Origin: Candidatus Omnitrophota bacterium
GTDB taxonomy: Bacteria; Omnitrophota; Gorgyraeia; Gygaellales; Profunditerraquicolaceae
Assembly: GCA_018814745.1 (NCBI GenBank)
Contig: JAHIZC010000186.1
Location: 1 to 12,198 of the forward strand
Length of the DNA: 12,198 nt
Direction: 5' to 3'
Below the pieces are notes generated by a model. That model saw only the letters and a list, made by a program, of their open reading frames with translations. It had not been told where the DNA came from and made no database searches. Made by a program: the position numbers and the translations under genes. Each line of letters opens with the position of its first letter. The stretch's first letter is position 1. Positions 1-3,246 of this stretch are shown piece after piece.

Positions 1-914
1 TGGTCGAAATATGTTAAATCTTTTCCACTCTGCTCTGCGTGCCGCCTTAAGTCGAAATCCGTTCTATTAGCAATACCTTCTAATTCTGACCAACCGATGG
101 TTCGACTACGCTCACCATTAGCACTGAGCGAAATCGAAGTGCCAAAAGGAAATTTATATTCTATATCCGTACATGCCTTAGCATAATGGGCAAGCTGATC
201 CTTTGCGTGAGGCCGTTTCTTTAGATTATCCTTATCTATCCCTAATTTAATGTACCAATCAAAACGGTAATCAATCCACTCAGTAAGCTTCTCATCTGCA
301 TCCTCAGGACGGACAAAATACTCTACCTCCATCTGCTCAAATTCTCTGGTCCTAAAGATAAAATTTCCCGGTGTAATTTCGTTACGAAAGGCTTTACCGA
401 TCTGCGCTAAACCAAAAGGCAGCTTCAGATGCTTGGCGTCAATGATGTTGGAAAAATTAACAAACATCCCCTGGGCTGTCTCAGGCCGCAAATAAATCAG
501 GTTTGAGTCATCTGCCAAAGCGCCCTGATGGGTCTTAAACATCAAATTAAAAGGCCGGGCTTCGGTTAATTCTCCCTGGCACTCAGGACACTTTTTCTTA
601 TCCCCAAGATCCTCTGCTTTATAGCGTTTTTTACAATTCTTACAATCACTCTTTAGGTCAAAGAAATTCTCGACGTGGCCTGAGGCCTTCCAAACATCCG
701 GATGCATGAGAATTGCGGCATCCATACCAAATATATCATCTCGCTCATAGACTACCGACTTCCACCATGCGCGCTTAAGATTATTCTTTAGTTCTACGCC
801 ATAAGGGCCGTAATCCCAGGTATTCGCTAATCCGCCGTAGATATCCGATGACTGAAAGATAATCCCCCGGCGCTTAGACAATGCTACGATTTTATCCATT
901 AAATTATCTGCCAT
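1..914 (-). CDS. glyS: Glycyl-tRNA synthetase, alpha2 (single-chain) type, C-terminus cut by window edge
   Basis: Charges tRNA-Gly with glycine in the cytoplasm; class II aminoacyl-tRNA synthetase of the single-chain homodimer type, not the GlyQ/GlyS two-subunit type. About 304 residues are visible from ATG at 914. The N-terminus carries the family signature [14 protein letters not shown] at about residues 26-39. A CxxC...CxxC zinc knuckle follows (C91, C94, C109, C112), then class II motif 2 around FRNEITPG (176-183) and the segment [11 protein letters not shown]. An in-frame palindromic repeat adds 16 residues (about T259-G274) into what is normally a continuous FPFGWSELEG-type stretch, with no stop or frameshift. 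The start at 914 has no clear Shine-Dalgarno; an in-frame ATG five codons downstream (899) is an alternative. The gene lies 104 bases beyond panB, so it either has its own promoter or is read through. The anticodon-binding domain is outside the window. Confidence 0.95.
93..143. repeat. In-frame palindromic repeat element inside glyS (two hairpin modules)
   Basis: Positions 97-118 form a module with outer arms ATGGT/ACCAT. Positions 121-142 form a second with outer arms GCACT/AGTGC. The 12-base cores between the arms, TCGACTACGCTC (102-113) and the reverse complement of 126-137, TCGATTTCGCTC, match at 10 of 12 positions, so the two modules face each other. Relative to the conserved GlyRS sequence the insertion is 48 bases, exactly 16 codons. 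Its ends cannot be fixed because G residues at both borders are ambiguous, and no clear target duplication is visible. As far as I recall, similar TTCGACT-CGCTCA repeats are scattered in genomes of uncultivated bacteria; that is memory, not a search result. Confidence 0.8.
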
Positions 915-1018: not shown

Positions 1019-1846
1019 TTAGTCAATTTTTTTAAGCTCCTCTTCCTTTATAGTGAAACTATGCTCTTTAGCAGGGAATTTACCGCTGGTCACTTCGTCT
1101 TTGAATTCCTCTAACGCCTGGAGTATCACTGCGCTGATGTCCTTATACTTTTTTACGAACTTCGGAGTAAAGCGCTCGAATAGCCCGAGAAGATCGTGGG
1201 TGACTAACACCTGGCCGTCGCAATCTATTCCTGCCCCGATACCGATCGTAGGTATCTTTAATTTTTTAGTGATCATCCCGGCGATTTTATCCGGAACGCA
1301 TTCTAACACCAGAGCGAAACATCCTAACTTTTCTAAATCCTGCGCCTGCTGCATTAGGCGCTTTGCAGTCTCTGCATCCTTACCCTGTACCTTGAATCCG
1401 CCTAATTTATCAGCGGTCTGAGGTGTTAAGCCGATATGCCCGATTACCGGAATTTTCGCCTGGATTATCTTCTCGGTTACCTCAAGGCATTTGTCAAACC
1501 ATTCTAATTTTACAGCATCACAATTAACTTCTTTGATAAACCTCTCTGCGTTCTTTACTGACTCTTCAATTTGCACCTGATAAGACTCATAAGGCATATC
1601 ACCTACTACTAAAGCATTCTTCACTGCCCGGGTTACGGCCTTAGAATGATGCAGCATCTCTGCCATTCCTACCTGGGTAGTCGAATCTAACCCCAAGACT
1701 ACATTGGCTACTGAATCACCCACCAGAATCATATCTATTCCTGCCCGGTCAACCAAAGATGCCAAAGGATAATCATAAGCAGTAAGCATAGTCAACTTCC
1801 TCCTGCCTTTAGCAGCTAATATATCCTGCACTGTAATTTTTTTCAT
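1019..1846 (-). CDS. panB: 3-methyl-2-oxobutanoate hydroxymethyltransferase (ketopantoate hydroxymethyltransferase)
   Basis: Catalyses the first committed step of pantothenate (vitamin B5, CoA) synthesis: transfer of a one-carbon unit from 5,10-methylene-tetrahydrofolate to 2-oxoisovalerate, giving ketopantoate. At 275 residues it has the usual length for the family and looks intact. Visible hallmarks are LTAYDYPLA near residues 21-29, VGDS with metal ligand D44, VGDMPY with metal ligand D83, KLEW with K113 and E115, GHIGLTPQ (136-143), and LVLECVP with the probable catalytic base E182. The ATG overlaps the TGA of the preceding NfnB-like gene (ATGA) and has a strong GAGGAG ribosome site five bases upstream, which fixes the start. 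PanE, the next enzyme of the pathway, is encoded about 5.4 kb upstream in the same block. No panC or panD is in the window. Confidence 0.97.
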   Translation of the reverse strand: MKKITVQDILAAKGRRKLTMLTAYDYPLASLVDRAGIDMILVGDSVANVVLGLDSTTQVGMAEMLHHSKAVTRAVKNALVVGDMPYESYQVQIEESVKNAERFIKEVNCDAVKLEWFDKCLEVTEKIIQAKIPVIGHIGLTPQTADKLGGFKVQGKDAETAKRLMQQAQDLEKLGCFALVLECVPDKIAGMITKKLKIPTIGIGAGIDCDGQVLVTHDLLGLFERFTPKFVKKYKDISAVILQALEEFKDEVTSGKFPAKEHSFTIKEEELKKID

Positions 1847-3246
1847 CTTTTCTCCTCAATGTATTTATTAATAGAGCGGGCGGCTTTTTTACCTGCACCC
1901 ATCGCAGATATCACTGTATCTGCTCCAGTCGTAATATCCCCCCCGGCAAATACACCCGGAAGCGAAGTCATAAAGTTATCATCCACCCAAATCGTGCCGT
2001 ATTTATTAGTCTTAAGATTCGGGGTTACTTTAGGTAATAGCGGGCTGGGATTCTGCCCGATAGCCACAATCACCGTATCTACATCTAAAATAAAATTAGA
2101 ATCTTTAACCGGAACCGGCCTTCTTCTACCTGACTGATCAGGCTCACCCAACTCCATCTTAATACATTCCAGGGCCTTTACAAAACCTTCTTGATCCGGA
2201 ATAATCCTTACCGGCTGAGTCAAAATCCGAAAGATAACTCCTTCTTCTTTTGCATTCTCTAACTCTTCAATTCTCGCTGGCATCTCTTTTTCACTGCGGC
2301 GATAAACTAAAGATACATCTTTACCCAGCCTCAATGCTGCTCTCGCGCAATCAAAAGCAACATTACCCCCTCCGATAACTGCTACTTTGTTCCCGATATT
2401 TATCGGAGTGGCGTACTCAGGGAATTTGTATGCCTTCATCAGATTCACCCGAGTCAAAAACTCATTTGCAGAATAGACCCGGCCTAGATTTTCACCCGCT
2501 ATCCCTAAAAACTGCGGCAGGCCTGCGCCAACCGCGACAAATATCGCCTGAAATCCATCTTTAAATAACTCCTCGATTGTATAGGTATTTCCGATAAGTA
2601 TATCTGTCCTGATTTTAACCCCAAGGCTCCTGATATATTCGACCTCATTGCCTACGATCTTTTTGGGAAGCCGAAATTCAGGAATTCCATAGACCAATAC
2701 GCCTCCTGCCAAATGCAATGACTCAAAAAGCTCGACTCTGTAACCCATTTTCGCCAGGTCGGCTGCGCAAGTCAATCCTGCCGGACCAGAACCCACCACC
2801 GCAACTTTTTCTTGTTTTTTAAGAATTTTAGCTAATTGCTGAAAGCTCCTGCCTGCCGGCAGGCATGGGATAGCTGAAGGCTGATTCAATTCATAATCGG
2901 CAGCGAAGCGCTCTAATGCGCCGATATTTATGGGAATTTTTTTCTTGTTTAATACGCAGGCGGCTTCACATTGATCCTCCTGCGGACAGACCCTGCCGCA
3001 TATAGCAGGAAGATTATTCTTCTCTTTTATCTTACCCAATGCCTCTTTACGCCTCTTCTCTTTGATTAATTTTATAAAAGCAGGGATATCGATTTCTACC
3101 GGACAGCCTTTAATGCAGGGGGAATTCTTGCATTGCAGGCAGCGGCCAGCCTCTTTTATCGCTTGCTCTTCGGGCAAGCTAAGTGCTACCTCAAAAAAAT
3201 TCTTAGCGCGCTCAAGCGGAGCTTGTTTTAAAGTTTTAGTTCGCAT
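1843..3246 (-). CDS. nfnB: NfnB/SudA/GltD-like NAD(P)H-dependent FAD oxidoreductase with N-terminal Fe-S domain
   Basis: A 467-residue flavoprotein of the glutamate synthase small subunit (GltD)-like family. The N-terminal domain has two cysteine sets for [4Fe-4S] clusters: C36, C39, C44, C48 (CLQCKNSPCIKGCP) and C83, C87, C93, C97. A first dinucleotide fold with GSGPAG near 152-157 should bind FAD, a second with VIGGGN binds NAD(P)H, and the C-terminal GDITTGAD segment contacts FAD. Length and layout match the large subunit of NADH-dependent ferredoxin:NADP+ oxidoreductase (NfnB) and sulfide dehydrogenase SudA. No glutamate synthase large subunit is nearby, while an NfnA/SudB-type partner lies one gene upstream, so an Nfn/Sud role is the better inference; which electron donors it uses cannot be read from sequence. 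The linker between the Fe-S and FAD domains contains a palindrome-encoded insertion (about residues 126-133) adding C128. It starts one base after the mgtE stop and overlaps panB by 4 bases. Confidence 0.88.
   Translation of the reverse strand: MRTKTLKQAPLERAKNFFEVALSLPEEQAIKEAGRCLQCKNSPCIKGCPVEIDIPAFIKLIKEKRRKEALGKIKEKNNLPAICGRVCPQEDQCEAACVLNKKKIPINIGALERFAADYELNQPSAIPCLPAGRSFQQLAKILKKQEKVAVVGSGPAGLTCAADLAKMGYRVELFESLHLAGGVLVYGIPEFRLPKKIVGNEVEYIRSLGVKIRTDILIGNTYTIEELFKDGFQAIFVAVGAGLPQFLGIAGENLGRVYSANEFLTRVNLMKAYKFPEYATPINIGNKVAVIGGGNVAFDCARAALRLGKDVSLVYRRSEKEMPARIEELENAKEEGVIFRILTQPVRIIPDQEGFVKALECIKMELGEPDQSGRRRPVPVKDSNFILDVDTVIVAIGQNPSPLLPKVTPNLKTNKYGTIWVDDNFMTSLPGVFAGGDITTGADTVISAMGAGKKAARSINKYIEEKR
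1852..1857 (-). promoter_or_regulatory. Strong ribosome binding site of panB
   Basis: On the minus strand this is GAGGAG, separated by AAAAG (5 bases) from the panB ATG at 1846. It lies inside the last codons of the upstream gene. It is the clearest Shine-Dalgarno sequence in the window; several other genes here show weak or no such site. Confidence 0.7.
2850..2865. repeat. Perfect 16-base palindrome inside the nfnB-like gene
   Basis: TGCCTGCCGGCAGGCA reads identically on both strands and is translated in frame as part of P-C-L-P-A-G-R (about residues 127-133). It lies in the variable linker between the Fe-S and FAD domains, just before the conserved KVAVVGSGPAG segment, where length variation is tolerated. 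GCCTGCCGGCAGGC-type palindromes are, from memory, a repetitive element in several uncultivated bacterial lineages and often leave CLPAGR-like peptides in proteins. A chance GC-rich palindrome cannot be excluded from one copy. Confidence 0.6.

Follow-up and report, generated by a model that had tools for sequence, protein, structure and literature searches.

The stretch of DNA analysed here (12,198 nucleotides, hereafter the window) opens with glyS, the gene for class II glycyl-tRNA synthetase (GlyRS). The gene occupies positions 3..914 of the minus strand and is cut by the contig end after 304 codons. It was assigned from its open reading frame, a PF00587 match and a match of the ORF at 3-914 to PDB entry 8u2q (E 3.2e-101). 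Between the FPFG and WSELEG motifs of the encoded protein stand 16 extra codons, an inserted 48-bp unit at 94..141 of the minus strand that is absent at this turn in 25 of the 30 GlyRS genes read. The minus-strand frame of glyS stays open through the insert region.

Read along the minus strand, the insert follows the target tetranucleotide TTGG (left X, 142..145), which is the TTY-GG of the Phe-Gly codons. The first module consists of arm a, CAC (139..141), the core, TTCGATTTCGCTCA (125..138), and arm a', GTG (122..124), the complement of a. A central tetranucleotide, X' (CTAA, 118..121), separates it from the second module, composed of arm b, TGG (115..117), core', TGAGCGTAGTCGAA (101..114), and arm b', CCA (98..100), the complement of b. 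The unit ends with the right X, TCGG (94..97); this tetranucleotide, like arms a and b, was delimited by parsing the layout of the copies described below. The X' of the window copy is decayed: its reverse complement agrees with three of the four bases of the left X and with two of the four of the right X, and the GlyRS copies in loci L034 and L035 carry CCGA at this place.

A first-pass annotation, made from the letters alone, had proposed a palindromic insert in frame in glyS, with two related inverted modules in 16 codons. Both proposals hold, as the frame is open, TTCGATTTCGCTCA (138-125) has a near reverse complement in TGAGCGTAGTCGAA (114-101), and 25 of 29 relatives are uninterrupted there. 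The ends that it gave, 93-143, had taken in two flanking Gly codons, and the insert is best placed at 141-94 (48 bp). Its description of the gene as intact on both sides is borne out for about 32 codons downstream, up to the contig end that cuts the gene at 1-3.

The GlyRS search gave matches in 47 of 58 genomes; the sequences of 30 loci, the window's own gene among them, were retrieved and read. At the turn in question, 25 genes have no insert, three carry the element (the window's gene, L034 and L035) and two carry another palindrome (L039 and L045). The alignment with the 29 relatives, which the annotation had recommended, places the 48-bp unit best at 94-141, and far from all close relatives carrying a related 16-residue stretch, 25 of the 29 lack any insert. 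A single TYGG stands at this place in 21 of the 23 empty GlyRS sites that could be parsed. The length of the turn also varies in a solved structure, the PDB alignment giving GFAGDPW in 8u2q, as compared to FGW in most of the relatives read. The RNA fold of the insert is unexceptional (z -1.47; 20 of 200 shuffles fold equally well), and the window gave no match to Rfam at gathering thresholds. We therefore judge the insert to be real because it is repeated across genomes, and not because of the strength of its hairpins.

The insert is a copy of a dispersed palindromic element. Further copies, another point on which the annotation had made its reading depend, exist: the window's genome (G000) has four copies of the full double-core form, and single cores with at most 2 mismatches are found there at 28 places, as compared to 9 for the reversed control. 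Within the host class, a double-core match (at most 2 mismatches) was obtained in 57 of 384 genomes, whereas the reversed control gave 0. When the gap was left free between 4 and 30 bases, an order-level search matched 22 of 127 genomes, and the middle was 10 bases long in all but one of the copies listed. The fetched loci, which are a part of the class matches, yielded 92 distinct copies with a 10-base middle. Ten more regions were fetched afterwards, and seven of their copies were counted as new, for a total of 99. As for the further three, L306 and L310 are the same DNA as the counted loci L198 and L171, while L309, a perfect copy located elsewhere and identical over 54 bases to the counted L222, is separate and stands outside the 99. 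L171 and L198, which are two of the three Omnitrophota loci in the outside-group control described below, share a stretch of 138 identical bases with G419 and G418, from the same family as the window's genome; the phylum of the window is therefore very probably Omnitrophota. Three related copies in the window's own genome (L009, L012 and L022), read by eye, have derived cores and an apparent 5-base X (TTACG, CGCAG).

The copies follow a common layout, X-a-core-a'-X'-b-core'-b'-X, with lengths of 4, 3, 14, 3, 4, 3, 14, 3 and 4 bases. A typical unit is thus 44 bp (arm, core, arm, X', arm, inverted core, arm) plus one 4-bp X. X is the flanking tetranucleotide at both edges, usually of the form YYRR, and varies from copy to copy; its reverse complement, X', takes the exact middle. 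This combination of flanking X and complementary centre, which the annotation had not noticed, is the most unusual trait of the element. X' complements both flanks in 56 of the 92 copies (the left in 64 and the right in 68), whereas 2000 shuffles of the flank pairs among copies averaged 8.5 agreeing copies and never exceeded 18. Left and right X are identical in 61 of 92. The seven copies counted later are all perfect, so that all three tetranucleotides agree in 63 of 99 copies; in the other 36, the left is odd in 12, the right in 8 and the centre in 5, and none agree in 11. X' has the form YYRR in 93 of the 99. X' agrees with one or both flanks in 76 of the 92 copies. Among these 76, pairing is complete for a/a' in 57 and for b/b' in 68, and the two arm pairs are alike in none. 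As in a target site duplication of the MITE kind, X lies at both edges, and empty sites mostly hold a single TYGG, including 13 of 16 empty ArgD-like sites judged by eye. A target duplication longer than 4 bp was also considered, and flank comparison of the 92 copies gives it no support.

In-frame palindromic inserts are known mainly from Rickettsia and from REP families. As a kind they are therefore not new; the target-complementary centre appears to be. In open-licence literature, the titles and abstract openings among the matches listed describe no X-X'-X layout. The 14- and 13-letter core strings were not found in open-licence papers, and the six strings of 11 to 12 letters led, among the matches listed, to papers on other topics as far as title and abstract opening tell. 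Since the target tetranucleotide is present at both edges of most copies and, as its complement, in their centre, guide-directed insertion becomes directly testable, and the layout hints at how tiny elements choose their insertion sites.

This arrangement suggests the following scheme. The element would move as a single-stranded hairpin or a closed dumbbell, with its ends joined at X, so that b'Xa becomes complementary to a'X'b. Some enzyme would open the element at X and join it to the target, which would be chosen by pairing of its tetranucleotide with X', much as the guides of IS200/IS605 elements select cleavage sites. The tandem arrays in L344 and L346 display the predicted b'Xa junction. 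Of the 63 perfect copies, 58 favour, as linear strands, the core-core' hairpin, which would leave X' exposed in a loop, over the pair of X/X' hairpins; in circular folding, 37 of the 63 do so. Flipped copies, with core' first, as would arise from a dumbbell opened at X', gave three matches in one of 127 genomes, all of them junctions of tandem arrays. Overall, we consider it probable, by a clear margin over an even chance, that the element is a mobile palindrome of miniature size, non-coding and dispersed in one Omnitrophota class; this judgement applies to the element reading as a whole. The guide step alone, in which X' would direct insertion by pairing with the target X, is a possibility that we place somewhat below an even chance. 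The fuller picture, a mobile element of less than 50 bases with one central guide for both ends, a self-complementary dumbbell form, a length that is a multiple of three and essential genes as its refuge, is offered tentatively, and with slightly greater reserve still.

The central complement could also have been written from the target. Insertion with a 4-bp duplication would be followed by hairpin template switching, which copies X into the centre; such switching is the known process of quasi-palindrome correction. Consistent with this, X varies among copies within one genome, the three readable copies of G000 having three different values, and of the 25 copies in which a single tetranucleotide disagrees, 5 have the disagreement in the centre, which does not exceed what random decay of initially perfect copies would produce. 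However, arm a' and X' are associated (76 of 92 copies, p 4e-4, a value that includes relatedness among copies), and X tracks the arm type within genomes: in a comparison that used 83 of the 99 copies, same-genome pairs share X in 11 of 18 cases when their arms are the same, versus 7 of 57 when they differ (shuffle p 0.017). Such tracking is expected if the element carries X'. The association between X and arm type is weakened by L256 and L258-L260, in that the shared X of some same-arm pairs goes back to a tandem duplication or to a single insertion that was copied together with the DNA around it. Writing from the target would, moreover, demand efficient correction at almost all copies, and the same cores in other phyla lack the layout. 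In an outside-group control on named genomes, at least 120 stretches gave at least 110 distinct core-pair copies, of which 109 were used, one flank being too short. Among the matches listed, the complete X layout was present in 3 of 3 copies from Candidatus Omnitrophota records and in 0 of 106 others, which showed one-sided X matches in one case on the left and two on the right. These 106, again among the matches listed, are mainly from Cyanobacteriota, Bacteroidota, Pseudomonadota, Planctomycetota, Thermodesulfobacteriota and Chloroflexota, two being without a phylum. We accordingly hold the writing of X' from the target to be unlikely, though it deserves serious weighing.

According to PMC8266576, IS200/IS605 elements and TnpA-REP use a tetranucleotide guide beside a hairpin, which picks the cleavage site by complementarity, and in IS200/IS605 this guide lies 5' to each hairpin. 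Judged from the letters, X' is likewise complementary to the site X. In contrast, a single central X' could serve both ends, X is found at both sides, and no Y1 HUH transposase is linked to the element, either in its own genome or in 20 sampled loci. The element also resembles MITEs in being short and non-coding, with inverted repeats and a direct repeat at its flanks, but differs in holding the complement of the target inside; no parent transposon was found, Y1_Tnp being the sole family searched.

A REP/REPIN-type element moved by a RAYT (TnpA-REP) would likewise account for small, paired hairpins, and Y1_Tnp genes are frequent in the class (296 of 384 genomes). In other species, GTAG/CGTC REPs have small stems with compensatory changes, form dimers and occur within genes, with tRNA synthetases among their hosts, as stated in PMC3733652; the present element shares each of these features with that description. 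On the other hand, its modules end in the variable X and X' and have no GTAG or CGTC tag, the core is 14 nt long and the centre matches the target. No Y1_Tnp or RAYT gene was matched in the window's genome (81% complete). Unlike in RAYT-mobilised REPINs, repeats flanking a RAYT gene were not seen: although 18 of the 20 sampled RAYT loci came from genomes carrying the element, a core-like hairpin was present in one of the 20, versus 5 per 106 kb of GlyRS loci, so that the cores are not enriched there. We regard mobilisation as a REP/REPIN as decidedly unlikely.

The reading of the element as a mobile palindrome tolerated in frame has its precedent in the Rickettsia palindromic elements (RPEs), which PMC2229807 and PMC10969869 describe as palindromic repeats in frame in conserved protein genes. 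The sizes given there are 105-146 bp and about 150 bp, and the target duplication is marked with a question mark. The present element is also palindromic, in frame and in conserved genes; it differs from those descriptions in its size (44 bp plus 4), its X-X'-X layout and its phylum. The annotation's suggestion of an RPE-like element of a different family and phylum, inserted in frame and tolerated, thus gains support from its repetition, its presence in many conserved genes, its 48-bp length and its one reading phase.

The last of these comes from counting the copies in genes and their frames, as the annotation had advised. Forty-eight of the 92 copies are located within long ORFs (150 aa or more, with 25 or more codons to either side of the copy), in both orientations (31 one way, 17 the other), and 44 lie outside such ORFs. 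Of the former, 44 are read in phase 2, four in phase 1 and none in phase 0, which would meet a stop (TGA in core'). From the phase of the target alone, 65% of the copies in the two open phases would be expected in phase 2, as compared to the observed 44 of 48 (p = 2.3e-5), and because of this excess, selection for the encoded peptide, which in the usual phase is a polar stretch of 16 residues rich in S, T, G, E and R, seems likely. Given that the net gain is 48 bp, the frame is never shifted. Pfam scans of 20 host ORFs, picked from 52 listed, assigned a family to 18, and the match spans the whole insert in 13 of the 20. The hosts include a class-III aminotransferase, which we take to be ArgD-like, RACo, a dCTP deaminase-like protein, LpxB, phosphofructokinase and a phosphoribosyltransferase that is presumably of the CobT type. 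Insertions at turns of conserved enzymes thus appear to survive, and we infer both their survival and their surface position.

Several of these sites were occupied more than once. At the RKF^G place of the ArgD-like gene, the element is present in G000, G032 and G016 (3 of 30 loci, with 16 lacking it and 11 in which the motif was not parsed). The copies of G032 and G016 have in common a 12-base insertion inside the core and were therefore probably inherited, as far as this marker indicates. In-frame arrays of two or three tandem 48-bp units are found in the ArgD-like gene and GlyRS (L344 and L346 of G417, L256 of G383), and unit number differs among related species: the ArgD-like gene has two units in G383 and three in G417, while a second place in GlyRS has one in G383 (L261) and two in G417 (L346). 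The N-terminus of an MtaB-like gene carries the element in five genomes; for L313 the name rests on UPF0004 and Radical_SAM matches, and the hosts in L065, L224, L230 and L262 are assumed to be MtaB-like from their motifs. These hosts form a natural experiment, with the same 16-residue stretch in GlyRS, an ArgD-like enzyme and an MtaB-like gene, in one, two or three tandem units.

At fourfold sites, identity between genera is 83-100% inside the inserts versus 32-51% in the rest of the gene (seven pairs, 6-12 sites per pair), which could reflect constraint at the DNA level, conversion between copies or repeated insertion. The GlyRS tree is weakly resolved, and the inserts of G000, G015 and G025 are compatible with one or several origins. 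That the insert is an old, functional and non-mobile protein part, a conserved loop, would agree with this fourfold-site identity and with the core insertion common to G032 and G016, but it is highly improbable, as the loop is absent from most relatives read, the same DNA recurs in many unrelated genes, unrelated palindromes occupy the same GlyRS place, and the copies, dispersed in both orientations and in nearly half of the cases outside long ORFs, already contradict it.

Other palindromes were encountered in the same genes. In L039 and L045, from different families, the GlyRS gene carries an unlike, GC-rich palindrome of 30 bp at the same place as the element, and in L035 a second element is nested within core' of the first with the frame kept. 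A third palindrome type lies in frame at the second GlyRS place, near VKDDTRVV (L034; G015). The window itself holds one more palindrome, TGCCTGCCGGCAGGCA, at 2865-2850 on the minus strand. It lies in the ORF 1843-3246, which encodes a GltD-like oxidoreductase, is read in frame as IPCLPAGRS and falls between the Fer4_20 and Pyr_redox_2 matches; it is possibly an insert of another palindrome family.
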